A stretch of 60,000 bases of DNA from Bolinopsis microptera (taxonomy: Eukaryota; Ctenophora; Tentaculata; Lobata; Bolinopsidae). The stretch spans positions 3,869,902-3,929,901 of the forward strand of contig NC_087076.1 in the NCBI RefSeq assembly GCF_026151205.1, given 5' to 3'. Below are positions 13,932-59,901 of this stretch, one piece after another; positions within the stretch are counted from its first letter, which is position 1, and each line of letters begins with the position of its first letter. The notes under the pieces were generated by a model. It saw nothing but the letters and a program-made list of their open reading frames with translations. It made no database searches and was not told where the DNA came from. The translations under genes and the position numbers were made by a program.

Positions 13932-14594
13932 TTAGAATTTCAGTTCGTTGGAATCGAAGTTCAGTTCACACCAATCTATTTCGTCGTACCTGGACTGCAT
14001 GCCGAGTAACTCCTTTTTTATTGTGGATTTTACAAGGTTCGTTGATGTAGAGAAGTTGATATTGCTAGCAGTGTTTCTACAATCGTTCCACATTTTTGTC
14101 GATTGATATATGAAGGAGGTGGATGGGGTTGGAGTGATGAATCGATCAGCACGTCTTGATGATCTGTGAAATAGATTTAGGAGTGGGACTGGGGATTCTA
14201 ATTTATTGATTTTGAACATTTCCAATAAACATGTGTGTTTGAACAAACTGTGTATGGTTAGTAAACCATTTTTCTTAAATAGCGGTTTTGTGTGCTGTTT
14301 TTCATAGAAGTCGCTTCCTAATTTTTGCTTGTCTTTACTTTGTGTTCTAGCACAAGTTCTAAACTTTTCTAAGTACGCCTCTCGGTTACCAAATAGTATT
14401 CTAACACATTTCTTCTGAGTGATAAATATTGGTTCAAGCCTGTTGTTACTAAGGCCACCCCATACTGATATCCCAAATCACAAGTGTGATTCAAATAGTG
14501 TGTAGTACAGTTCTTTGTAGAGTTTTTCTGGAATAATGTGCCGTATTCTACAAATTTTCCCACTTTCACATTTCAGCTTTGTGTTGAGCGACCG
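13932..14594 (-). pseudogene. LINE A ORF2 C-terminal region
   Basis: After the 742-bp insertion the frame resumes as RSLNTKLKCESGK, matching RALNSKLRCEIGR at 23798. It continues through ISVWGG, ITQKKCVRILFGN and FRTCARTQ to FIYQSTKMWNDC and the natural end ELKF. One in-frame TGA lies just before FGISVWGG (about 14475). The domain is the conserved C-terminal region found downstream of RT in CR1/jockey LINEs; its function is not known to me. Confidence 0.88.
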
Positions 14595-15336
14595 TAAAGT
14601 AGTGGATGACCTTGCTGTACGGCAAGTTAAACAAGGATCTGAAACTACTAGGTTCCGTACAGACTCAACTCTGCACCCGTGTCAATATGTTCATTATATG
14701 CAAGCCTCTTGATTTATAATCACCGAGTCTAGTAATTGTTTAAGAGAGTTCTCTGGCAGTTACGAAACTCGAGAGACTGTGGGATACTGAAGGGAAAGGA
14801 AGCAGTTCTAACGAGCTCTTCTCAAACACAAGGATATATCTTGTGAACTCGGCTAGTATATATGAAACATTTGTCATGGAGTTGTAGAGGGAGTTATGTG
14901 CCTCGCCGGGCTAAAGTAGTGGATGACCTTGCTGTACGGCAAGTTAAACAAGGATCTGAAACTACTAGGTTCCGTACAGACTCAACTCTGCACCCGTGTC
15001 AATATGTTCATTATATGCAAGCCTCTTGATTTATAATCACCGAGTCTAGTAATTGTTTAAGAGAGTTCTCTGGCAGTTACGAAACTCGAGAGACTGTGGG
15101 ATACTGAAGGGAAAGGAAGCAGTTCTAACGAGCTCTTCTCAAACACAAGGATATATCTTGTGAACTCGGCTAGTATATATGAAACATTTGTCATGGAGTT
15201 GTAGAGGGAGTTATGTGCCTCGCCGGGCTAAAGTAGTGGATGACCTTGCTGTACGGCAAGTTAAACAAGGATCTGAAACTACTAGGTTCCGTACCCGTGT
15301 CAATATGTTCATTATATGCAAGCCTCTTGATTTATA
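14595..15336. mobile_element. Multimeric 317-bp repeat inserted in LINE A
   Basis: Units start at 14595, 14912 and 15229 with TAAAGTAGTGGATGACCTTG; the first two are full 317-bp copies that look identical. The third stops after about 108 bp and lacks about 16 bp between CCGTAC and CCGTG. The insertion interrupts the RT ORF exactly between DAHI and RSLN, and the junctions allow a TA (or TAT) duplication. The structure is A-B-A-B-A', where A is about 123 bp and B about 194 bp. No protein is encoded. It could be a TRIM-like or circular-RNA-derived element, or a tandem array grown in place. Confidence 0.85.
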
Positions 15337-16805
15337 TGAGCATCCCATTTAAGCTGATCATCAATAATAACACCAAGAAACTTCACCTTTTTGACTTGCT
15401 TTATTACTACATTGTTTAGAGTAAGTACGTGTTCTTCTTCATTATGTTCCACCTTGCTTTTTCTATTCGTTGGTTTAAAGTGAATGTAACAGCATTTCTT
15501 AATGTTAATATGCAGGAGATTACATTTCATATACAGTTGTACCAGTTTGAGAATTTGGTTTGCTCGTTCATATAACTTTATCTTACATTCATCCGCGACA
15601 AATATATTTGTATCGTCAGCAAATAGAATGAACTTGCCTAGTTCAGTTGCCCTATATAGGTCGTTGATATAAATAATAAATAGTAACGGACCAAGACAAG
15701 ATCCCTGGGGTACTCCAAAGAGAACTGGAAGCTTGTCAGACTCTTCTCCTAGGACCGAGACGTATTGATATCTATTAGAGAGATAACTAGCAATGAGTTT
15801 GTTGGCATTGCCTCGAATTCCGTAATTATCTAGCTTACTCAGTAATTTGTCAGCTGAGATGGTATCGAATGCTTTGCTTAGATCAATGAATATTCCGAGC
15901 ACGTGCTGCTTTTTATTAAGGCATGATTCTATATAATTCACTGAGAAATTCAGGGCATGACTTGTAGAGTGATTTGTACGGAATCCATACTGATTTTCAT
16001 AGATCATATTTTGTGACTGGAAAAAGCTGTATAGCCTACTATATATAATTTTCTCGAATAACTTACCAAATACGGCTAAGGTAGAGACTGGTCTATAGTT
16101 TTCAAGTAATTCTTCATTTTCTTTCTTGTATATGGGACTGATCCTGCCAATCTTTAAATCGTCCGGGAATATTCCCTCCTTCAAACATTCATTGTATAGT
16201 ACAGATAATAGGGGGGCGATAATTCTGGATGACGCTTTTACAACATGTATTGGGATATCAGACGATTTGCCATTTTTCAATTCTGATATTATTTTACATA
16301 CTTCATCGATTGTACAATCATGCATGTAAATACTGGTCGTGTTGGATTTTGGTAGGTAGTCATAGATACTGGGGATGCCATTAATTACTAGTTCGCCGAT
16401 TTCATTGTATGCCTCGTTAAGATTAGAAGCTAGGGAGACAAAGTACTTATTAAACTCATTAGCTATTACCCTACGATTAGTAATTTTTTCATTATTGATA
16501 GTAAATAGAGGTTTGGTTTGTCGTTTTCGTTTACCCCGTATTTGGTTAATTAATTCCCACGTCTTTTTACTGTTTCCGTGCAACTCTGCAAATTTTCCAT
16601 CATAGAACTTAGATTGAGCATTGCGGCGATCTTTTTTGACCTTCCGCCTGCAGTCACTGTATTTTTTATACTTGTCACGTTTTGAGCAACATATTGGGCA
16701 TTGGCATGTCCCCCCTTTATTTTCAATTTCCCCAAATTTACATTTAACTTTTCTGACCTTTACCCATTTATCGTAAAGTTCGTGCTGATATGAAATTTTG
16801 CCCAC
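15337..16805 (-). pseudogene. LINE A reverse transcriptase
   Basis: The open frame of about 490 codons is a non-LTR reverse transcriptase that copies LINE RNA at the target. Visible motifs are ENYRPVSTLAVFGKLFEKII, NQYGFRTNHSTSHAL, FIDLSKAFDTI, GVPQGSCLGPLLFIIYINDL and the catalytic LFADDTNIFV. LGVIIDDQLKWDAHI closes the thumb region. At DAHI the frame runs into a foreign insertion (14595-15336). The RT itself has no stop, so the copy was probably young when interrupted. Confidence 0.92.
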
Positions 16806-16968
16806 AAGGTCTGGTGTAATCCATGGGTTGTTCAGTGCTGTTGACTACATTACACTGTTACTGGGGAAGTTGTACTACTTACGGCCACAAAAAGAGTTTC
16901 TAAATGTTCAGTGATATGGGATACATTGCCGTTTACTCTGGCACTAAGAGTGTCACAAACATAGAGAG

Positions 16969-17514
16969 CTACTCCAGTGCCCTTTTTTTATCTGGTATTG
17001 TGTTTTGGTAGAAACTGTTGTATCCAGTTAATTGATACAAACTGCTGGATTCAGGACCTTCATTTGTTTCCGCTAAGGCTATGATCGAGAATTTCTTGGT
17101 GAGCCTATGGGATTCAATAGCGAAAGTGTCGAAATTTGACTTATTGCCGTCGATGTTTTGGAAGAGAAGCGATGAAAATTCATTCATTTGATTATCTAGT
17201 GCTTTGTTGAATTCCTTGACATTGTACGATACGCAGTTATTTAGTATTTGATCTACTTTTATGATAGTGTCATCCACTTCACTACTTTCAATATCACTTA
17301 AATTAGTGCATGCAGGTCGAAATGGATTGTAACGAATAACTGCTAAATGTACGCACTTGGGACAGTAAAAATCGTCAGATAATGTGTCATTGTTAATGGA
17401 TTTGGTATAGCACTTATGGTGCATTGGGCAGTCGCATTCACAGCATTCAACAATGAATTGTCCTTTATATTTGATATTGCGATATTTCCGAATACTATTT
17501 CTTTTTTCAAGCAC
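16969..17514 (-). pseudogene. LINE A ORF2 N-terminus: PHD-like finger and start of endonuclease
   Basis: The 181-codon reading frame has a PHD-like pattern near residues 24-55 (CCECDCPMHHKCYTK...FYCPKCV) and then the CR1-type linker LLFQNIDGNKSNFD. The endonuclease opens with IIALAETNEG, whose Glu is the first catalytic residue. After the frame ends, the next frame continues GTGVALYVCDT...SSTTSPVTV (about 16850-16980) and stops. The rest of the endonuclease, including the GDFN and SDH motifs, is gone; sequence resumes at NNPWITPDL before the RT. The same domain order is seen in family B at 55832. ATG use is uncertain because the copy is dead. Confidence 0.85.
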
Positions 17515-17739
17515 CAGATAATAATTTTAGGGCATCCACGGGCCTGTTATAATTTATTCCGGTTTCTGTATAAAATAATGTGTAATGTGATATAATGGGA
17601 TCATCGGTGAATAAAATATGAAATAGTAACAAATGATTTTCTACATCATACATACAGCAATGTGCTGTCCATAAATCCAGGAATCACTCTACACTCGACT
17701 GTCACGTGATTTTTAAACACGTTTTCTAGCTGGTCCACA

Positions 17740-21434: not shown

Positions 21435-23017
21435 TCGAGAGTCTTGAAGCTCTGTTATCACCACCCCTGGTGCAACCCCGTCGCGTCGGGTTGAAGACGG
21501 GGAGACAGGGACTTCCAGGAGATATCATGGCCTGCTATGTGCAACTCGTAGGAGTGTGCAGTGTTCCTGGTGAGTGTTACTTCTAAATCTGCTTAATGGG
21601 ATCGCCAAACAGTTTATAGACAGTTGCCTAGGTACTGTCATATCTAAGCGGAAACTTGTCTTTGGACATCGCTTATGTGTTTATATCTCGAACTACACAG
21701 TGTCCTGCTCCTGTAACCTGGTCAGTGGTAGCCTGTGAGGGTGTAGACTGCTCCTCTATTGTTTTATGTTTATCTATATCGGTATTTTGATTGTCCGATC
21801 CAAAACTAAATCCTGGGTTCCCACGAGACGTGGTAGCCTGTAAGCGTGTAGACCGCTTTTCTATCTTTGTTTTGAGTGTCCGATCTAAAACCAAAACCTG
21901 GGGTCGGTTACATGAAACATGGGAGCCTGTGAGGGCGTTTATAGTTTCCTGCGAAAGGAGTTATTTGCTCATGCTGGTGCATTGTGGAAAGAGCATGGTT
22001 ATGCTCTAAGGCTAGTACTAGTACTAGTAGAGCTTATTAAACACCTACGCATATATGATATAAGATCGCGCGCGTTCCGCGCATTTTGTTCAATTTAAAG
22101 TCAATCTTTTAAACAAATAAGTATAATTCGTATATCTTTGATTAACGTTTTAGTTATGAATATTTTCCTGCCTATACCTAAAATTTTACTGTATTGTTAT
22201 TTAGAAAATTTCTGATCATTTCGTGTAAATATGCCCATTTAGTTTTACTTATTTCATATGTTATGATCAAAACAAAATGGAGGACTTTTATTTGTTTTAA
22301 AATGCACTTAACTCTATTTACAGTTAAGCTAGAAATTTCAAAATTGCTAGATAATGATATTTAGACCATAAATTGTATGATGTATTAAAAATCATACTAA
22401 AAGGATTGTTCTGGAATTTATGGACAGCATTTAAAGAGTGCTTATAATATATATCTTGTCAAAACGCGAGAAAACGCGCAAAATACTTAGTTTGCAATTT
22501 GCGCTTTTGCAGCCACTGTGGAATGCTGGCGCGGCCCATCGAGGAAAATCTTTTTACTTTGTCATTTGTTTTTTAACCATTATAAAATATGATTAGTTGG
22601 ATATTTAATTATATTGAGTCCAAACAGTTCCCGAAACGAAAAAGCAAACATTTGATTTTTGTTTCGGCGACTGAATCTTCGATGGGCCGGCAAATATTTG
22701 TTTATTGATAACATGATTATTGATTTAATTTAGGAATTGTATATAAATACCTTTGACCAAGTTAATTTGTCAATGAGAATGCACCCCACTACTTGGCGCT
22801 CGCGGCGGCTATGATGTTAGCGGCTACAAGTTAGGCAGCTGCAAAAAGATGCCGCGCGCGTTCAGCGTACGGCGTTTCGTTTTTGATTTTACAAATGACA
22901 AAGCAATTTTTAATGATTATTAATGGAATTATCGGATATTTATAATTCAATATGTATTGATTCTTCTGTGGATAATAAAAATTGTATTTTACTTAAAAAT
23001 TGTATTTTACTTGTAGT

Positions 23018-24460
23018 CAAAACTATAGGCCAGTATCAACTTTAGCTGTTTTTGGTAAGATATTTGAAAAAATTATTTACAACAGACTGTATAGCTTCTT
23101 TCAGTCCCAGAAAATGATTTACGAGAACCAGTACGGATTTAGAAAAAATCACTCCACAAGCCATGCCCTCAACTCCTCAGTGAATTACATAGAATCCTGT
23201 CTTAGCAAAAAACTGCATGTACTTGGAATATTTATTGATCTATCTAAAGCGTTTGACACGATCTCACATGAAAAACTACTTAATAAACTAGACAACTATG
23301 GAATACGTGGAAACGCCAATAGACTCATCGCTAGTTATTTCTCTTATAGATATCAATATGTCTCTGTACTGGGCGAAGAGTCTGACAAGCTGCCTGTTCT
23401 CTTTGGAGTTCCCCAAGGCTCTTGTCTCGGACCCTTGCTATTTATAATATATGTTAACGACTTATTTAGAACAACTGATCTGGGCAAGTTCATACTATTT
23501 GCAGATGACACAAACATATTCGTAGTAGATGAATGTAGAAAAAAACTGTATGCAAGAGCAAACGAAATTCTCCGTTTGTTACACCAGTACATGAAATGCA
23601 ATCTATTACATATAAATATAAAGAAATGCTGCTACATTCACTTCAATCCGTCACGTACAGCTACTGATAATGAGGCAGATAACGAATCAGAATATATACT
23701 AACTCTAAATAATACGGTAATAAAGCAAGTTAAAGAGACCAAGTTTTTAGGTGTTATTATTGACGAAAAGCTAAAATGGGATGTTCAAATAAGAGCCCTC
23801 AACTCGAAACTTAGGTGTGAGATCGGAAGACTCAGTAGAATACGACACGTTATCCCGAAAAAACACCATAAAGAATTGTACCACACGTTATTTGAGTCAC
23901 ACCTAAGATTTGGAATATCGGTATGGGGTGGGTCGAGTAATAATATGCTTCAACCTATCTTCATCACTCAGAAAAAATGTATCAGAATACTATTTGGTGA
24001 CCTTGAAGCATATCTAGATAAATTTAGAACATGTGCCAGAACACGTTGTATAGATGAACAAATCCTAGGAATAGAATTCTTTGAAAAAGAGCATACAAAG
24101 CCGTTGTTTAACAAGAACGGCCTTCTTACCGTCCACAACCTGTACAAATACACATGTCTATTAGAACTGTTCAAAATTGTCAGATTAGAATCTCCAATCT
24201 CACTCCTATCTTTCCTCCACAGATCACCATCACAAAGACGTTCAGACCAGTTCATCACCCCGAACCCATCCTCCTCTTTCATTTATCAATCAACAAAAAT
24301 GTGGAACGACTGTCGAAAAATTGACAGTTTGATAAGCTTTACTAAGTCAACGAACTTAGTTAAAGTAACACTGAAAAGTGAGCTACTCAAGATACAGTCC
24401 AGGTACGAAGAATTAGAATGGACAGAATTAAACTTTGATAAGAATGAGCTTGTATTTTAA
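23018..24460 (+). pseudogene. 5'-truncated LINE family A copy: RT and C-terminal domain
   Basis: The frame is open from NYRPVSTLAVFGK at about 23025 to the natural stop after ELVF, about 478 codons. RT motifs are all present: NQYGFRKNHSTSHAL, FIDLSKAFDTI, GVPQGSCLGPLLF and the catalytic LFADDTNIFV. The C-terminal region with ISVWGG, CIRILFGD and STKMWNDC is uninterrupted. Sequence upstream is unrelated to LINE, so the copy is 5'-truncated at about 23018, typical of incomplete target-primed reverse transcription. It could not move alone because it lacks ORF1 and endonuclease. Similarity to 13932-16805 is high throughout. Confidence 0.92.
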
Positions 24461-49740: not shown

Positions 49741-50036
49741 TGAATTAACTGTGTGTTGATACTGTGCGGCTGAGGCGTCTAAACGAGGATTGAACACCTC
49801 ACAGCACGATTTCATGAAGATCATGTGTGCGCTTACATGATGCATGAGTTATAATCCAACATTTGAGTAAAATAACAAGATTTATATTTGATATTTTGTG
49901 TGTAGTGTGTGTAGCTTACGTTGCAATTATCGAGCTCCCTTATCTTTTGTAACTTAGCGATAAGTTCAGTTTGCTGCTACCGCGTAGTTAGCCTTTGCGT
50001 GTGTAATTGTACATTATTATACAAGTACACCAGGCC

Positions 50037-52627
50037 ATGGAGGATGATCTGAATTTGACCCGATCTCAGAAGAAAATCAAGGATTTCAACTACGAAGAAA
50101 AGGAAGATGTAGAGGGCTGTACTGAAAGATGGTTTACTTCGATGGCAAGAGAACTGAAATTAGAAAACTTCGAAATTCGTGGAAATATGGACCAGGAAAT
50201 ACTCATGTCTACGTCTATCTATAAAAGGTATATGGCAAACTGGGTTATGCAAGCAGCAGACCTCGTACGACGGCAGAGTAGTCAGATGAGCGCTATGATG
50301 GAAATCGTTGAGTGCCTCAAGACGGAAGCACTAGCAGACAAGGAAAAGATGGTCAGGTTGCAGGACCAGTTGCTAGTGCAGAAGGACGAACAACTACAGT
50401 TGTTTAAGACGTCAGTTGAAGAGACAGTACAAACAACGGTGGAGACAGGAATTAAGAGCTACAGTGCAGCTGTACAAAAGAACAGCACAAGTGGCGCGGT
50501 CTGCAACAGTAAAATTCTGAAGAATGTAATGAAGAGTGTGGCTGCAGAGGAGGACAGGAGCAAGAATCTGATAGTGTTTGGTCTGAAAAGGGTTCAATTC
50601 TTGGACCTCTCCTATTTCTTCTTTATATGAACGACATCACAAACAGTTCTAAACTAGGATCATTTGTTACCTTTGCTGATGATACCAATATATTTGTTGT
50701 CGGCAAAACAAAACGTGAGGCATATGAACGAGGAAATGAGCTTCTGTCATCATTACAGTCTTATATGAGAGCGAATAAGTTACATATAAACATGTCCAAG
50801 TGCTGCTACATACACTTCAAACCCACCATGGCAGGTTCTAAATCAGAGATTTTATCACACCCTGAAGTTGTACTAACTATAGACAACTTTCCAATCAAAA
50901 AGGTTTCATCCGCAAAATTTCTGGGTGTTATAATTGACGAGAACCTATCATGGGAAGATCACATCAAAGCTCTTAAGCGAACTCTAAATCATTCCACATC
51001 CACTTTATGTAGACTCCGCTGCTCCCTTCCAGAATTTCTACACCAACAATTATATTATACCCTGTTCGAATCACATCTTTCCTACTGTATATCTGTATGG
51101 GGTGGGGCAGCGAAGCAACGTATAAGCTCATTATTTACTGCTCAGAAGTACTGTCTCAGAGTACTATTTGGTGATAGACTGGCGTACCTTGATAAGTTTA
51201 AGACTTGTGCACGTACTAGGCCTATAGGACACCAGAAACTAGACAAAAAATTCTTCATAAAAGAGCACACCAAACCGATATTCAAGCATAATAATATTCT
51301 AGCTATATAAAATCTATATACATACCACAGTTACCTCGAGCTCTACAAGATAATGAAATTCCGTGCTCCAATATCCTTACATGAGGGTTACACATGTTCA
51401 TCAAGGAAACCCTGCCTTCTAATCTGTCAGGCAGACCCACCTGACAATCACAACACTAGATCAACCAAAATTGAAAATTTTTAACATCTTAACCCCAAAG
51501 TTCAGAATGACTGATTTTACTACTAGTGTAATGTGCTTGCGAGGATCTAGCTAATCAACATAACCACGCCCTGCTTGATTGGACCGTAAAAGACTTTGAC
51601 TGCACAAATACTATTTTCCAAACGTTATAACTGGCTGGTCACACACATCTAAATTAAATTACCCTAGGCTACTGTTTTCCAAGTCTTGTCCTGTGAGTAA
51701 AGTACGTGTGAGAATGTTTTAATAAAATGAATGTATATTTTTGAATTTTTAAATTTTAATTTGAGAATGAAGTATAAAGAAATTTTTAATTAGCATTGTA
51801 TAGTTTAAAATATTTATAGCTTATTATAACCATTGATAAATTTAAGCCATAATCTTTCGCCTGCTCTCCAATATCCACCTTGAAGGTGCATTTTTAATCC
51901 TTGAACTACACAATATAAAATCAAGCATGTTTTAGTGTAGACTTTTTGTCACAACAAGACTGCAACCTAGATAGTAAAAACTTTAAACAGAACCCCTAAT
52001 GTCTGCTAACAATTTTTCGTATAGTCCTAATGTGAGCCTTGTCTCTAAAAACTTAACTGAACTAGCGTTTTGGTGTGTGCAAAAGCTCCCAGGCACGCGC
52101 ATTCCTTGCCCCGTTAGTTACCTGTCCTTCCAAAACCAAACAAGCAGTCGAGGACAAAAAGTCATACACCACATGGGCATTATATTTTATGAATTGTTTT
52201 ACATCTTTTTATTCTGTAAAATGTGCTAAAATTAAATTTCTTGTTTCATTGAAAATTTCTTGTTTCATTGAAAGAAGAGGATGAAGAACAGCTACCAGCT
52301 CTGGTAACCGCACTATTGGAGGAGATCGGGGAGAAACCTCATTTTGAAGCGACTAGAGTCGGCTGGAAGAGGCCAGGTACGGTTATCCGACCAGTCAAGA
52401 TCACCGCCCCAAGCTCAACAGCAGTTCATCAGATTCTGATGAAAACAGGGAGACTGAAGATGGCTGATGCACACAAAAATGTATGGATCTGTCCTGATAG
52501 ATCCAGTGAAGAGCGTGCAGCAAGGAAGAACGTGGTAACTGACCTGAAGAAGAAGAGGGCTGAACAGACTCATCTCGACCACTACATCCGTAACGGGAAG
52601 GTCTGTAGCCGGGTTAAGAAGACACCA
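50037..52627 (+). pseudogene. LINE ORF1 (coiled coil plus RRM-like domain), split by another LINE
   Basis: The first part, 50037-50588, begins MEDDLNLTRSQKKIKDFNYE and holds a long helical, coiled-coil-like section. It then reaches an RRM-like start (DRSKNLIVFGLK). The second part, 52269-52627, continues EEDEEQLPALVTALLEEIGE and GWKRPGTVIRPVKITAPSST, ending RVKKTP before a stop. The pair reads as one ORF1 RNA-binding protein once the 1.68-kb insertion is removed. Such proteins coat LINE RNA in the RNP. Whether it belongs to the same element as the AlkB-SGNH ORF about 700 bp downstream (after undoing the inversion) or to a different LINE is unresolved. Confidence 0.85.
50589..52268 (+). mobile_element. 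5'-truncated LINE family B inserted into ORF1
   Basis: The insert starts inside the RT motif (GGTTCAATTCTTGGACCTCT encodes GSILGPL), contains the catalytic FADDTNIFVV, and covers the C-terminal region with ISVWGGAAKQ and CLRVLFGD. A TAA after NNILAI (51308) is premature, since NLYTYHSYLELYKI continues in frame. A deletion near 51400 then leads to the 3' UTR (51420-52267) and the terminal TTTCTTGTTTCATTG pair. Host ORF1 reads ...GGTCTGAAA before and AAAGAAGAGG after, so at most about 4 bp (AAAG) are duplicated. Confidence 0.9.
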
Positions 52628-52644
52628 TGATGACGTAATTCATG

Positions 52645-52890: not shown

Positions 52891-53417
52891 GGGGGGGGGT
52901 CCAAGGGGAACTTTGGGGAGTTTTGGGGAACTTTTTTTTGGGGAACTTCAGGAAACCTGGGGGACTTTCCCAAAGTTCCCCAAAAAATTATCAATGAAAC
53001 AAATAATTTTGGGGAATTTTGGGGAACTTTTTTTTGGGGAACTTCAGAAAGTTCCCCAAAATTCCCCAAAGTTCCCCAAAGTTCCCCAAAAAAATTATCA
53101 TGCCAAAAAAATTATCATGCTGCAAGTATCAACAAGTAAGTTAAGATTATACCTTAAATAATAACATAATATACATGTTAACATTAATGGGTATTAATGT
53201 ATATTAGAGAAATTTTGAATAATTTTGAATAATTTTGAATAATTTTGAATAATTTTCAAGAATAATTTTGAATAATTTTGAATAATTTTGAATAATTTTG
53301 GGGAATTTTGGGGAACTTTGGGGAGTTTTGGGGAACTTTTTTTTGGGGAACTTCAGAAATCTTGGGGGACTTTCCCAAAGTTCCCCAAAGTTCCCCTTGG
53401 ACCCCCCCCCCCCCCCC
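52891..53417. mobile_element. Poly(G)-capped inverted-repeat element, 527 bp, mismatched flanks
   Basis: It starts with 9 G, then TCCAAGGGGAACTTTGGGGA, and ends with the reverse complement followed by 16 C. Internal GGGGAACTTT and AAAGTTCCCC units repeat many times, and a (AATAATTTTGA)n tract lies at 53214-53300. The flanks are TAGCAT on the left and TAACAT on the right, which are not a duplication of each other. Each matches a 6-bp sequence at the far junction (ATGCTA and ATGTTA at 55103-55119) where only GGGGG remains. Confidence 0.75.
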
Positions 53418-54678
53418 TAACATATAGACTTTTTCCAGTAGCTGATACAGTTTTGGTTTCAGATCCTTCGATTTTACTGAATAGAACATCACAGGTACTG
53501 CCTAGTGATATAGTGAAGATGTTACTATCAAACATTAGTGAGGCTTCGTTGTCCGAATGCTTCGGCAGCTCTGATTTCTCGTCAAGGTAGCGATTCACTA
53601 AACACTGATTAATGACACTTTCAGGGAATTTGGCCTGGATGAGCGAAACAAGTTCAGTTAGGGGTTCAGGGATGTTTTTGGATATAGGTTTTGCAGCTTT
53701 GGCTCCTGAATAGTTGTATGCATCCCCAAAGCTTATGACACCATGTCCTCTTTCTGAGTTTGCATCAAACTGTTCACTGAATGTGTCAAGGTATTCAGTG
53801 AGTTTATCCGAAAGTTCTTGGGCAACAAAATCTGGTGTGAATGACTCAATGTGACCAATGGAGGTGTCTATAGGATTTTGCACTGTATGTAAGTCAATCT
53901 TAGGATCTGGTTTTTCGATATTGATATTAGGAAGGCCTATTGGGAAAAAAGGAAATGCAGTGTTACGTGGTACATCTGGAGTTGACATATCTGATGGTTT
54001 CATGTACTGATCAATGGAGAGAGTCAGGGTGTTAAGCTGGCCACTGATTGATTTGAGAGTGTCATTGTGCACCTTATCTCTCTTAAGAATGCTATTTTGA
54101 ATAGCCTGAAGGGATTCATGGAGGGTAGCATTTCCAGAAATGGAGTCAGCAGCTACAGAAGAAGCAACTGCTGCTTCATCGATGGGGTTGTCACCGATAG
54201 ACAACCTTTTACCCCCTATTACTGCACATACTTTCTCTGACAGAGAAAGTAGGGACAGAAGGCCGTCTGCCAGGGTATATTTGTTAAGTGTTGAACAGTT
54301 TTTGATGATTGTAGGGGTCAACGTTGCAAATTGGTCTACTTCTACTTTCAAAGTACTACAAAAGTTCAGTTTGATATTGTCTACTTCAGATCGTAGGTTT
54401 TTTGAATGGGCCAAAAGAATTGTATCAAAAGGTGTTGAAGCATTGGTACAAAATGAAACAAAACTGCTTACGTCTGCTTCACAGTCCTCAGGGGTTCTGT
54501 TCTCTGCAACAGCTTCTGAGGATTCAGGTGCAGCAGGGGCAGCTGATGTCTGATTGTCTTTAATCTGGGACCCCAAATCATGCCTTTCATTGTCATTTCC
54601 TTTGTTATCTTCCTGAAAGACATAATTTGAGGTACCCAGCCCCACTGGCTGTTGATCGGTTTGACCGGATTCCACCAT
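53418..54678 (-). pseudogene. LINE ORF: helical N-terminus plus AlkB-like dioxygenase, C-terminally cut
   Basis: ATG at 54678 opens about 420 codons on the minus strand. Residues 1 to about 240 are low-complexity and helical. From about residue 318 an AlkB-type 2-oxoglutarate/Fe(II) dioxygenase fold is readable: FGDAYNYSG, IPEPLTELVSLI, CLVNRYLDEKSELPKHSDNE with the HxD iron ligands (about H374, D376), then IFTISLGSTCDVLFSKIEGS. AlkB enzymes oxidatively demethylate nucleic acids. The frame ends at TGKSLYV, where poly(C) begins (53417). The next residues of the domain are found at 55119 on the other strand. The frame beyond 53418 into the G-rich element is spurious. Confidence 0.82.
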
Positions 54679-54896
54679 TCTCAAAGTGAGATGGGGTTGA
54701 GCAAGTTCGAGATAGAGACTGCTCAGCGGTTTCGGGTCCTCAAATTATTTGTTATATAGTAGTGTTGAAAATATTAAAACGCCATATTAGTTACGCCACT
54801 GAGTAGCGCATCTCGCCGATCTAGCGTCGTTGCAAGAAGCATAATTGAGTGCGCGGCGCAGCACAGTAACGCATCGCGCTACAAGTATCGGCGCAC

Positions 54897-55010
54897 ATAT
54901 CACATTACACATTATTTTATACAGAAACGGAAAAAATTATAACAGGCCCATGGATGCCCTAAAATTATTATCTGGTGCTTGAAAAAAGAAATAGTATTCG
55001 GAAATATGGC
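54897..55010 (+). repeat. Segment shared with the 5' part of LINE family A
   Basis: TATCACATTACACATTATTT to ATTCGGAAATAT is nearly identical to the reverse complement of 17480-17592, where it leads into the PHD-bearing ORF2. Here it is followed instead by the inverted dispersed repeat. Between 54679 and 54896 no gene is visible; a lone hAT-like end GTTACGCCACTG lies at about 54788. Confidence 0.75.
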
Positions 55011-55015
55011 AATAT

Positions 55016-55108
55016 GATTTTGATTTGAAACTTTTACAAAATAGCAAGTATACAAATGTACAGCAATTCGAACAAACATATAAAATGGGCCGAAATGTAT
55101 AAATGCTA
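55016..55108 (-). repeat. Inverted remainder of the LINE-associated repeat
   Basis: The reverse complement reads TAGCATTTATACATTTCGGC and so on to TTTCAAATCA, matching 31187-31270. It is the missing continuation of the copy ending at 52890 and is the direct mark of an inversion with breakpoints at 52890 and 55108. Confidence 0.85.
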
Positions 55109-55118
55109 GGGGGATGTT

Positions 55119-55835
55119 ATGAGTAAGCAATCTCAGTCTGTTTGGCAACATCAAATAGATCAATCTCCAACCACACGTGAGAAAAGATATAGTGTTACAT
55201 TTCGTTATGTTACATCTAACAACGAAAATGCAACAATAATAATAGGAGACTCCAACACTAGATTCTTGAAATTCGGTAGTGGGAAAGGACGTTTTGGTCA
55301 TAGAATGCCAGGGAAAAGGGTAGAATGTTTTATTATTGATATGATTAACCCAAGTTTGTGTGAAGGTTACAGAAATATTTTTATTCATTGTGGAGTAAAT
55401 GATATTAAGAAACGGAGCTCAAATATCGAGCAGTGTGCCAGTGATCTCAAGGTAAAACTTGATGATATATGTCGTAAATGTCCATACTCCAAGGTTACCG
55501 TTTCGCCAGTACTACCCACTAAGTTTGGCTGGTTGAACGAGAAAGCATTATATTTTAACAAACTTATATTTCAATATGTTGACATGAACCCAAAGGTGGG
55601 AACTCTAGATTTTAATGAATTTGTTGGTGAAGATGGTAAACTAGCTGACCAGTTCGGTCGTTTCAAGGATAAAAGTGATGCCATCCATCTTGGGTCTACT
55701 GGTATCTTTAAGTTGTCTAGGCTAATAGTGGATAAAATACAGCGCAATCCAATAGATGGGCGCCAATTTAGTGATATTGCTAGGAGTAAAGTTGGGATGT
55801 TCAATTCACGTATTCAAAGAGCTCCGAAACCATGA
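55119..55835 (+). CDS. LINE B ORF1 remainder: AlkB C-terminus plus SGNH/GDSL esterase
   Basis: The present ATG is an internal Met created as a start by the break. Residues 1-31 carry the end of the AlkB fold: WQH with the distal iron-binding His (H11) and RYSVTFR (R23, R29), the pair that binds 2-oxoglutarate. An SGNH hydrolase follows: IIIGDSNTRFLKFG with nucleophile S45, IFIHCGVNDIKK (Gly-x-Asn-Asp block) and SDAIHLGSTGI with the Asp-x-x-His pair. SGNH esterase domains are known in ORF1 of CR1-type LINEs and may aid membrane or lipid interaction. Its TGA overlaps the ORF2 ATG (ATGA at 55832), suggesting coupled translation. Confidence 0.88.
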   Translation: MSKQSQSVWQHQIDQSPTTREKRYSVTFRYVTSNNENATIIIGDSNTRFLKFGSGKGRFGHRMPGKRVECFIIDMINPSLCEGYRNIFIHCGVNDIKKRSSNIEQCASDLKVKLDDICRKCPYSKVTVSPVLPTKFGWLNEKALYFNKLIFQYVDMNPKVGTLDFNEFVGEDGKLADQFGRFKDKSDAIHLGSTGIFKLSRLIVDKIQRNPIDGRQFSDIARSKVGMFNSRIQRAPKP

Positions 55836-58655
55836 ATAGAACAAATATATGTGAGAACTGTATCTGCTGCAGCAAACCTATTCGTGCTGGACACCCATTT
55901 ATAAATTGCAATAAGTGTGATTGCATCATTCACAAGAGATGTAAAACACAGGAAAACATTGCCACTTTTAGAGAAAAAACTTACTGCTCAAATTGTATTC
56001 AAAATCATGATATAATTCGTTATAATCCATTCTATCAAGCACCTCACTTTTCAAACAACGAACTACTTGACAATGAACCTCACGACTATATAGACTCAAT
56101 AAGTACAATCTCAAAAACTCTTGAGAACTATCAATCATATTCTATTAAAAACTTCAACAACCTCATAAAGCAGATTCCTCAAACAACATCAAAGCGCATA
56201 TTCTCACACTACTTTCGAAATATTGATGGAAATGGTACTAACTTTGACAAATTGGCCTTAGAATAAGCCTGCATAGACCACAAATTTTCTGTGATAGGTT
56301 TAGCAGAAACAAACATTGATCCCTGTAATAGTCAGCTGTACCAAATTAAAGACTATACTTCATGTTACCAAAAACGCTTCGTTTCTAATAAGACACAACA
56401 GGTAAAAAGTAAAGGAAGTGGAGTTTCTCTCTACATTCACAACTCCTTTAACTTTAGTGTGATTGAAAAGTTATCTGTTTGTACAGAGCAATTTGAGTCC
56501 CTATTCATAACAATAAGTAATGCTCCAGAACCAGTAACAGTTGGAGTTGTATACCGCTCACCAAGCAATCCACTTGCTAACTTCAATGCACAGTATAAAG
56601 AAGTTCTTACTGCACTGAAAGGACATAAAGCATACATATTAGGGGACTTCAATGTTAACATAACCAATTTATCAGGCCCAGATGAAGATATATTCGAAGA
56701 AGTTATTTATAGTCACGGGTTCACGCCCACAATATCCATTCCCACACACCAAATGCCCCACTGCTCAAAAACGTGCATTGATAACATACACACTAATGAC
56801 ATTCACTCATCAACTATATCTGGAGTAATTCAGGATAGTGCTTCACATCACCAGCCCATTTTCTGCCTTCAAGTAATGAATTCTGATACTAGTTCGGAAC
56901 AGAATAAATCACCTGAAAAAACAACGATTTATTATAACTATAGTAATGCAAACCTTGATAAGCTCTGTGAAGAAATTGAAAACGACATAGATACATTTTA
57001 CCACAGATGTGACTCTTTTGAATCCTTCATGGATCTGTTTCAAGAAAAGATAGATATATCTTGCAAATTGGCTTCACCAAAAACCACCAAACGAAATAAT
57101 ATAACAAATCCATGGATCACAAACGGCCTTATCAACTCTGTGGAGAAAAAAGCCAGACTTTATTTTGAATGGAAAAAAACAAAAACATTGTTAATTCCAG
57201 ATGGGGATCTGGAAAGACATAATGTTTACAAGGACTACTCAAAATATCTTAAAATTGCCATAAAAACTGCCAAAACCAGGTATTATGCTGAAAAGTTTGA
57301 GAAAAATAGCCATAACTCCAAAAAAACCTGGCAAATAATTAACGAGCTTCGTGGCAAAAAGAAGAATCAGCTAAAAGATGACTTCATTATAGATGGAACT
57401 AGAGTAATTTGTAGGCGGACTATTGCAAACAAATTCAATAGTTACTTTACATCTTTAGCTAGTAATTTAAATGAGAAGGTTTTGTCCGAGAACCAACTGT
57501 CTATCCAACCAATGCAATCATTTGTTGAGTTTATGTCGAAATCAGTCAACAGTTCAATACATCTAGAAGAAACTCATCCTGAGGAGATTCTTGAAATAAT
57601 TCAAGAATTCGTTAACGGAAAAGCCAGTGATATACCAATAGCAGTTATCAAGAAACCGGCTCATCTCTTATCCAACATATTAGCAAATTTGTATAATACA
57701 TGTATTCAAAAAGGCACGTTCCCATCCATATTCAAAATAGGCAAAGTAACTCCTATCCATAAAAAAGATAATAAAGAAAATATTGAAAATTATAGACCTG
57801 TGTCAATATTGCCAATCTTTGGTAAAATATTTGAAAAAATAATATACAAACGGCTTTATACCTTTTTCACTGCTAATGACATTCTCAGTAATGAACAATT
57901 TGGTTTTCGAAAAGGCCACTCAACCTCACATGCACTCCACAAATCAGTTCATTCAATCACAACATCAACATCCAGTGGTAATCATGTTCTAGGAATCTTT
58001 ATTGACCTAAGCAAAGCTTTTGATACTCTTGACCATGGCATTCTCCTGAGGAAACTGGAAAATTATGGGGTTAGAGGTCTAGCTCTAGGACTTCTAAAAA
58101 GCTATTTATCCGATAGATCACAGTATGTTTCATTTAATAATTTAATATATATGTAGACCAAGGTCTGTGCACGGGATGCTTCCTTCATTTCTCAACACTA
58201 CATCAGAGACTATGAATGTAAAATATGGAGTTCCCCAAGGTTCCATACTAGGCCCTCTACTTTTCTTATTATATATGAACGACATAATAAACTGTTACAA
58301 AGGCGATGAATGCAAATTTGTGCTCTATGCTGATGACACAAATATATTTATCACTGGACCGTCCAAAGAAGCAACATACTTGAAGGCCAATAAAGTTCTT
58401 GATTTCGTATGCAAATTCATGAGAAGTAATCTCTTACATATAAATATGTCTAAATGCTGCTACATACATTTTCTACCTGCATACGAATCTGATGAAACCT
58501 GCGCCAGGGTTAGGCCGTATGCCAATGAACATGACAAATCACAAGGAATATTTATAAATGGACACAAAATTGTTAAGGTTAGCAACACCAAATTTCTTGG
58601 TGTAGTAATTGATGAAAAACTTAGCTGGGGCCCACATATAGAATATCTACGGGTA
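55832..58655 (+). pseudogene. LINE B ORF2: PHD-like finger, endonuclease, reverse transcriptase
   Basis: Domain order is a PHD-like Cys/His cluster (residues 8-56, CENCICCSKPI...YCSNCI), an AP endonuclease (GLAETNID, VGVVYRSPSN, ILGDFNVNI, SHHQPI) and a reverse transcriptase. RT motifs are ENYRPVSILPIFGKIFEKII, FIDLSKAFDTL, GVPQGSILGPLLF and LYADDTNIFI. The canonical endonuclease SDH reads SHH here. A TAA at 56264 breaks the frame just after the finger, and a 55-bp insertion at 58141-58195 shifts frame within RT. The 3' part ends abruptly at GPHIEYL (about 58655), where another element begins. The protein would nick DNA and copy LINE RNA; this copy cannot. Confidence 0.92.
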
Positions 58656-59720
58656 TCGGCCTTACAAAATGACATGAAAAAGGAGATGGCTCTGAAATGC
58701 ACAAAAATGAGTTTTGTTCATGTTTTATTATCCAGATAGGTAGTTCAACAAGTATATTTTTCTTCCCGGGGGTTGATTTCATTAAATAACCGTAAATTTT
58801 GCGATAAAAATTGTCATCTTTGAAATCTTCCAAAAAAACATGCCTTACAAAATGACAATTTCGTCACAGCTGTCATTTTTTAACAGCAGCCAGATAGAAA
58901 TTTGATTTCACCTAGGACAGTTAGATAAATATAATATATTGAAGATTAGAATAGCTTTTACAGGAAAAAGGATGGTTGGAAAAAGTTGGGCAACTTCGCG
59001 TGAGATTGTGCCTTACAAAATGACAACCCAAAACGGCATCACTCCAAATCCGATTTGGGAAAAAGTTTCATTATTCTTTCACGTGTCTTACTGTTAGATA
59101 CATATGTTGTTTATATTATACCAGTTCTGTTTTTACCAGAATATATTAAAAAAGGAACATTTTTTATACTTTGAAAAAATTGAAAAAATGTCATTTTGTG
59201 AGGCGTAAAAATCATTTTTTGTTTTCATACTTGAACACAGTATTTGGTTATATTTGATATGTTCTATGCCTGGATAGATCACTTTTCAGTGTTTAGTTAA
59301 CGTTTGACATGTATTACTCTCTGCTTTCACAAAATAGAAGCTTTATTTCGTTGAGTTTTGAAATATTTTTAAAACGTTTTGATATCAGAGCTGCACTTTT
59401 GTAATGCTTACTTGATTGTTAACTGTCAGATTATGATTATTTTTAACTCCTTCTTGTATTGACTGTTTCTGATCCATTTTAGATGATGAAAGTAATTCAA
59501 TCTGAAACACTGTCATTTTGTAAGGCTTTCCGTGTCATTTTGTGAGGCATTTTTATCAAAATTGATGATCAAACGAACACATATAGGCTCATCATAAGCT
59601 TACTGGGTTTTAGAATACCAATGATTAGGCAAGGTGCATCCAATATAAATATGCCATCTTTGAATCATAAAATAAAACTGTCATTTTGTGAGGCATAACA
59701 CTGTCATTTTGTGAGGCTAG
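58656..59720. mobile_element. DNA element with inverted arrays of a 16-bp subterminal repeat
   Basis: GCCTTACAAAATGACA occurs at 58659, 58842 and 59010. Its reverse complement (TGTCATTTTGTGAGGC, one TAAGGC variant) occurs at 59189, 59511, 59533, 59679 and 59702. All forward copies are on the left and all reverse copies on the right. The left end cuts LINE B ORF2. LINE sequence does not resume before the window ends, so the true right end may lie beyond 60000. Neither a terminal repeat nor a target duplication could be fixed. Confidence 0.65.
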
Positions 59721-59901
59721 GTCGTTTTTTTGTCATTTTTCCTACCAAAGTCACTAAATCAGTTTTTTTATTTAACCAGAGTAGTCTTTGATTGACATAA
59801 GTCATGGTAGTACCTGGTTTCCTGGGGTTAAATTCAAAACTTTGGTCTCCATTCTGGTTAACAGTTAGGCGGGGCAATGACTGAACAGCAAAAACGTCCA
59901 T
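59704..59901 (-). other. Unrecognised 65-codon ORF beside the subterminal repeats
   Basis: The frame begins MDVFAVQSLPRLTVNQNGDQ and contains RKPGTTMTYVNQRLLW. It is followed on the same strand by the right-hand subterminal repeats. It might be a first exon of a gene in the element or just outside it. No domain is recognised. Nothing else is seen in 59902-60000. Confidence 0.2.

Follow-up and report, generated by a model that had tools for sequence, protein, structure and literature searches.

An AlkB-like domain joined to an SGNH esterase in ORF1 of a decayed LINE from the ctenophore Bolinopsis microptera

Of the components of retrotransposition, the ORF1 proteins of long interspersed nuclear elements (LINEs) belong to those that are less well understood. 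For the Jockey superfamily, the ORF1 domains listed in PMC4120745 are RRM, CCHC, PHD and esterase, with no nucleic-acid-modifying enzyme among those listed. The esterase-type (type IV) ORF1 of ZfL2-1, CR1 and L2 elements contains an SGNH domain with a full triad (PMC3905857, PMC4120745), and the ZfL2-1 esterase is reported to have hydrolytic activity and to bind negatively charged phospholipids (PMC3905857). A retrotransposon-encoded 2-oxoglutarate dioxygenase of the AlkB family has been described in Ty3/Gypsy elements of the orchid Phalaenopsis, whose AlkB open reading frame (ORF) specifies all cofactor residues (PMC9289625). Here we describe an element in which both kinds of domain occur in one ORF1. 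It lies in a stretch of 60,000 nucleotides (nt) of the Bolinopsis microptera genome (assembly GCF_026151205.1, NC_087076.1, positions 3,869,902-3,929,901), hereafter termed the window, and is a decayed, 5′-inverted LINE copy. Its ORF1 comprises a helical region, AlkB and SGNH, and is followed through an ATGA overlap by an ORF2 with a PHD-like finger, an endonuclease (EN) and a reverse transcriptase (RT).

A first-pass annotation of the window had read two frames on opposite strands as the halves of one AlkB fold, and both were found where it had placed them. The minus-strand frame spans 53353-54744 from stop to stop, its family-like part running from 54678 to 53419 and ending ...ATGKSLYV; the plus-strand frame spans 55110-55835, reads MSKQSQSVWQH... 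from 55119 and closes with a stop codon at 55833-55835. Positions 53419..54678 (minus strand) hold the first 420 codons of ORF1 in inverted orientation, with the start codon at 54678, a helical (probably coiled-coil) region and the first part of AlkB. The remaining codons, at 55116..55835 (plus strand), encode the end of AlkB and then the SGNH esterase, and terminate with TGA. Since it fills the interval from the ORF1 start codon to the seam, 54679..55113 (minus strand) is the presumed 5′ untranslated region (UTR) of the element, likewise inverted.

Natural proteins from other records join the two frames without interruption. P0027 (385 residues) aligns to the minus half with residues 19-147 at 98.5% identity and to the plus half with residues 147-385 at 97.9%, the seam being exact to one shared residue. 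P0002 (674 residues, 15 member sequences) also crosses the seam unbroken, at 87-88% identity to the halves, as do P0003 and P0004 at lower identity; the minus half by itself is 86-87% identical to P0001/P0002. P0027 and P0002 thus carry both halves in a single ORF, and the proposal that undoing an inversion at an ATGTTA repeat restores the reading frame is borne out: ATGTTA occurs at the seam (55114..55119, plus strand) and a second time at the opposite border of the inverted segment, there as the minus-strand CTATATGTTA.

What was flipped is the front of the element, comprising the presumed 5′ UTR, the ORF1 start and 420 codons. Twin priming would produce an inverted 5′ end whose junction coincides with a short match. 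With the front end inverted and a 6-base match at the seam, this route, at the time of insertion, is the most likely origin of the inversion. A foldback repeat at 52891-53410 (40-nt arms, 93% complementary, G/C runs at the ends, TTTTGGGGAA-like units) directly adjoins the left edge of the inverted piece, so that a later rearrangement is a possible alternative; the route has no effect on the reading of the ORF1 protein. The same repeat could have joined in a rearrangement if the halves were unrelated frames, brought together by later DNA rearrangement or by assembly error. We give this explanation next to no probability, as the joined sequence exists in natural proteins, in P0027 at 98% identity and with an exact seam. 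These proteins make the window copy the altered one, whatever the route, and P0027 refutes the unrelated-frames reading. Chance or a frame artefact behind the AlkB-SGNH reading is likewise excluded by the E-values, the relatives and the conservation reported below.

The minus half contains a stretch matching the Pfam family 2OG-FeII_Oxy_2 (PF13532, AlkB) at 53473..53724 (minus strand; E 9.8e-11, 42.7 bits against a curated cut-off of 31.2). The same family matches P0002 over residues 335-465 with 67.9 bits, a range that takes in RYSITFR, and the AlkB assignment of the half with the HSD motif therefore holds in the profile search that the annotation had advised. The cofactor residues H-x-D ... 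H, N-x-Y and R-x5-R are all present in the window pieces. HSDNE (53545..53559, minus strand), aligned to H-R-D-D-E of ALKBH2, provides the iron ligands His and Asp and an acidic residue at +4. The distal iron-ligand His is encoded at 55149-55151 (plus strand; column H447 of P0002), the 2-oxoglutarate arginines at 55185-55187 and 55203-55205 (plus strand; columns R459 and R465). The annotated spacings, about 57 residues from HxD to the distal His and six between the arginines, agree with P0002 numbering, in which His390 and His447 are 57 and Arg459 and Arg465 six residues apart.

The unbroken ORF1 relatives form a large and diverse family, nearly all of whose members keep both active sites. A first search of 5.8 billion proteins yielded 46 relatives, and alignment-based repeat searches gave 45 and 82 matches. 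All 44 members of the first set (A1) and 63 of the 64 of the second (A4) match PF13532; Lipase_GDSL_2 matches 31/44 and 15/64, respectively, at E ≤ 0.01. The second set is more divergent; its members have AlkB and SGNH, and their ORF1 often opens with a finger of the PHD type, each of three Pfam PHD models matching 8 to 10 of these 64 members. Among 140 sequences (138 proteins and the two window pieces), a loose C-x-C Cys/His PHD pattern, written after viewing the sequences, matches 50, and a strict C-x2-C pattern none. P0045 and P0137 represent a third, very divergent form with a long linker between AlkB and SGNH, in which no PHD finger was seen. Across the 111 sequences with both domains, the distances for AlkB grow with those for SGNH (Mantel r 0.82, with 0 of 999 permutations as high), which fits a long co-inheritance of the pair. 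P0005, of the same kind as P0002, comes from Mnemiopsis leidyi, the sole organism named among the relatives. Viral contigs, scanned twice, and prokaryote genomes, scanned once, yielded no relative, which is what one would expect of an animal LINE. P0126 starts with a Tudor-like match that is weak (SH3_Hsr9, E 0.0064, below cut-off) and has repeats before continuing into a LINE AlkB/SGNH piece that lacks the HxD part; it may be a host gene that has absorbed a portion of an element.

Conservation was scored as agreement with P0002 over the proteins having a letter in the column (120-132 relatives per column), leaving out column D480, an alignment gap artefact with one sequence. The AlkB sites are kept in 92-99% and the SGNH sites in 98-100% of relatives. 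The iron ligands His390, Asp392 and His447 reach 99% (of 132), 97% and 98% (of 131), the acidic Glu394 at +4 97%, the 2-oxoglutarate arginines Arg459 and Arg465 96% and 99%, and the N-x-Y residues Asn378 and Tyr380 97% and 92%, against 29% for the median AlkB-domain column. Six of the eight AlkB sites rank within the first 20 of 176 columns (hypergeometric 2.5e-5). All five SGNH sites are among the top 20 of 172 (1.3e-5): Ser481 (100% of 127), Gly528 and Asn530 (98% each), Asp623 (98%) and His626 (99% of 120).

In the window, these SGNH residues correspond to 55251-55253 (Ser), 55392-55400 (Gly-x-Asn) and 55677-55688 (Asp-x-x-His), all on the plus strand, and the motifs GDS, GVND and D-x-x-H had been read correctly as intact and following directly on AlkB. 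A profile search of each half had been advised; the minus half matches PF13532, whereas the match of the plus half alone to Lipase_GDSL_2 is weak and stays below the cut-off (18.3 bits against 32.9, E 0.0034). An Endotoxin_C match on the plus half (E 0.0017, below cut-off; in 4/44 first-set members) was taken as chance. The profile of the first set matches 4c1b, the ORF1 esterase of the LINE ZfL2-1, with E 1.3e-6, though the SGNH proteins 8gr2, 8tlb and 2hsj outscore it; for the second set the 4c1b match is weak (0.0063). The predicted structure places long helices at residues 99-125, 146-170 and 200-242 ahead of the esterase, and this N-terminal region is probably a coiled coil.

The ORF1 stop codon is overlapped by the ORF2 start codon in ATGA (55832..55835, plus strand). 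ORF2, on the plus strand throughout, opens at 55850..55996 with a C4HC3 Cys/His spacing that we take to be a PHD-like finger; no Pfam PHD model scored on it. After one in-frame stop, the endonuclease and the first RT part follow at 56267..58156 (PF14529, E 1.3e-5; PF00078, E 7e-19). The PF14529 (Exo_endo_phos_2) score lies just under its cut-off, and the endonuclease motifs LAETN, GDFNV, CIDNI and SHHQPI are present. The RT continues in another frame at 58146..58739 with YADDTN (PF00078, RVT_1, E 2.3e-18). PDB matches of this ORF2 are LINE-1 ORF2p and R2 proteins. Its decay thus consists of one in-frame stop, one frame change and the replacement of the 3′ part near 58660. Repeated GCCTTACAAAATGACA / GTCATTTTGTGAGGC words stand in place of the RT 3′ part at 58660-59740. 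In the window copy, where other repeats take over from the 3′ part of ORF2, no target-site duplication was identified. Its SGNH half shares the strand of the downstream EN-RT ORF2, and the AlkB half is the inverted one. AlkB, SGNH, PHD-like finger, EN and RT, which the annotation had sought in one element, are accordingly all present in the window.

Two proteins from outside the window support the view that this ORF1 and this ORF2 are parts of one element. In P0056, which is a gene model from Mnemiopsis, an AlkB part and a short SGNH remnant precede a stretch with 66% identity over 275 residues to the window ORF2. In P0129, RVT_1 with about 60% identity to the window RT follows on a PHD-AlkB piece that belongs to the second set. 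Both look like spliced or deleted forms, and are therefore evidence of neighbourhood, not of a natural ORF1-ORF2 fusion.

The domain anatomy of ORF1 suggests a LINE whose helical-AlkB-SGNH protein (ORF1p) would strip m1A/m3C-type methyl groups for reverse transcription, and the ZfL2-1 precedent suggests that the esterase acts on lipid; we judge this account, taken as a whole, to be reasonably probable. ORF1p would coat the element RNA in a ribonucleoprotein (RNP) and form oligomers via its helices. The ALKBH2/ALKBH3-type domain would use Fe(II), O2 and 2-oxoglutarate to demethylate single-stranded nucleic acid at the Watson-Crick face of its bases (m1A, m3C and similar), acting above all on the element's own RNA template and perhaps also on nascent complementary DNA (cDNA). 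With the methyl groups removed, target-primed reverse transcription would not be stopped and could finish, and the esterase would bind or cut lipid, as in ZfL2-1. Bases of the m1A/m3C type stop reverse transcriptases, and AlkB treatment relieves the block; in ARM-seq, laboratory AlkB treatment reportedly lets reverse transcriptases read methylated tRNA. Tentatively, one may go further and picture an old LINE group with its own base-repair enzyme in the RNA-packaging protein, for which cleaning of the RNA template (and perhaps the cDNA) inside the RNP is part of the transposition machine; if true, this would be a mobile-element analogue of that laboratory treatment. The earlier suggestion of repair or demethylation of LINE RNA or target DNA would narrow to chemistry of the ALKBH2/3 type.

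Judged from sequence profiles and predicted structure, the domain is ALKBH2/ALKBH3-like, unlike ALKBH5. Structural comparison assigned it an AlkB-type fold, and the nearest solved structures, both by profile and by fold, come from the ALKBH2/ALKBH3 subgroup. The profile ranking lists ALKBH2, ALKBH3, ALKBH8 and AlkB, and for the second set also ALKBH6; ALKBH5 and FTO gave no profile match at E up to 1 (first set) or up to 0.01 (second set). This bears on the alternative that the domain removes the m6A mark from element RNA, which would thus escape host readers, as has been proposed for the orchid Ty3/Gypsy elements. The absence of ALKBH5 and FTO from the profile matches argues against such a role, as does the Glu at +4, which follows ALKBH2/3, the acid of ALKBH5 being elsewhere, at Glu153 (PMC3985658); we consider it distinctly unlikely. 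An acid is usually found near the active site in such enzymes and only its position in the sequence varies (PMC3985658), and the Glu at +4 was for this reason dropped as proof, on its own, of m1A/m3C specificity.

Several observations weigh against the proposed clearing of the RNA template. P0127, P0132 and P0133 lack the Asp of HxD, P0012 and P0133 the distal His and P0103 one Arg; P0126 has no HxD part, and P0129 stops before the distal His. The loss of iron ligands in a few relatives (P0127, P0132, P0133 and P0012) would agree with an AlkB domain that has given up demethylation and works as a fold for binding RNA or protein, but retention of these ligands in 97-99% of 131-132 relatives, set against the 29% median, makes this very improbable. 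The relatives were moreover gathered with AlkB-bearing queries, which makes losses of the domain appear fewer than they are. By fold, ALKBH2 and ALKBH3 rank equal, and the folds of ALKBH5 and E. coli AlkB match well too. Viral AlkB folds match as well: giant-virus and plant-virus AlkB proteins were found, several at a root mean square deviation (rmsd) of 3-4 over about 190 columns and others in long alignments at very high rmsd, and no donor is indicated. Finally, ALKBH2 and ALKBH3 both act on DNA and differ in strand preference, so that an RNA substrate is not dictated. LINE integration produces single-stranded DNA, which speaks for an AlkB domain that acts on DNA, whether by repairing or demethylating single-stranded cDNA or the opened target or by erasing a silencing mark. 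The description of ALKBH2 and ALKBH3 as DNA demethylases (PMC11065319) and the fungal DNA transposons with TET/JBP dioxygenases (PMC12730594) point the same way. However, ORF1 proteins are presumed to package LINE RNA (PMC3905857) and the present data contain no sign of DNA contact, and we regard a DNA substrate as rather unlikely.

Elsewhere in the window, further LINE ORF2 copies lie at 13932-17526 (minus strand), 22997-24460 (plus) and 50513-51310 (plus), with 41-63% identity to parts of the ORF2 described here; no AlkB/SGNH ORF1 was seen beside these three. The first includes a stretch like the PHD-like start of the AlkB element's ORF2 (37% over 126 residues). A tblastn search of the window with 137 family proteins gave 297 matches, of which 32 have their start beyond 53300-55900. 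Among those 32, the best 25 comprise 7 ORF2 segments of P0056 and P0129 and 18 weak matches (E 5.8e-4 to 0.75), and show no second AlkB/SGNH copy. Two pieces at 50007-50630 and 52253-52630, interrupted by an RT fragment, resemble in their motifs one ORF1 of another LINE type; they match no Pfam family above cut-off and gave one chance-level match.

Compared with known systems, the element shares with ZfL2-1, CR1 and L2 not only the SGNH domain but also the 4c1b profile match, helices before the esterase (a coiled coil in ZfL2-1) and an ORF2 with EN and RT. It differs from them in the AlkB domain that follows the helical region and precedes the esterase; the main texts of PMC3905857 and PMC4120745 contain no word that starts with AlkB or oxygenase. 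In structural alignments, the AlkB domain of the family is 18-25% identical to human ALKBH3 and ALKBH2, from which it is set apart by residing on a mobile element and by its fusion to SGNH. RNA viruses offer a further AlkB on an RNA-based replicon (PMC544882), in the context of a virus protein and with a likeness to the present family judged by fold alone. The fungal TET/JBP carriers are also mobile elements with a nucleic-acid dioxygenase of the wider superfamily, but they are DNA transposons with a different dioxygenase family, and PMC12730594 found no retrotransposon with TET/JBP. Among the titles and abstracts listed by searches of the open-access literature on AlkB/2OG and retroelements, which leaves Repbase Reports and most subscription journals uncovered, none names a LINE with AlkB, and an earlier description in those sources is possible. 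An AlkB domain in a retrotransposon is already known from the orchid Ty3/Gypsy elements. These have long terminal repeats (LTRs) and a separate, ALKBH5-like ORF2 that is m6A-active in vitro and is described as recently acquired in Phalaenopsis (PMC9289625). The window element does not belong to this type of LTR element with a separate ALKBH5-like ORF: it is a LINE, its AlkB is fused to SGNH in ORF1 and appears ALKBH2/3-like, and it recurs in sets of relatives that have diverged from one another. If ORF1 contains a conserved domain of demethylase type, base methylation would be an obstacle to LINE replication strong enough to be worth an enzyme. The AlkB-SGNH ORF1 with its ALKBH2/3-like domain adds to the orchid Gypsy elements a second case of AlkB-carrying retrotransposons, with a different type of AlkB.
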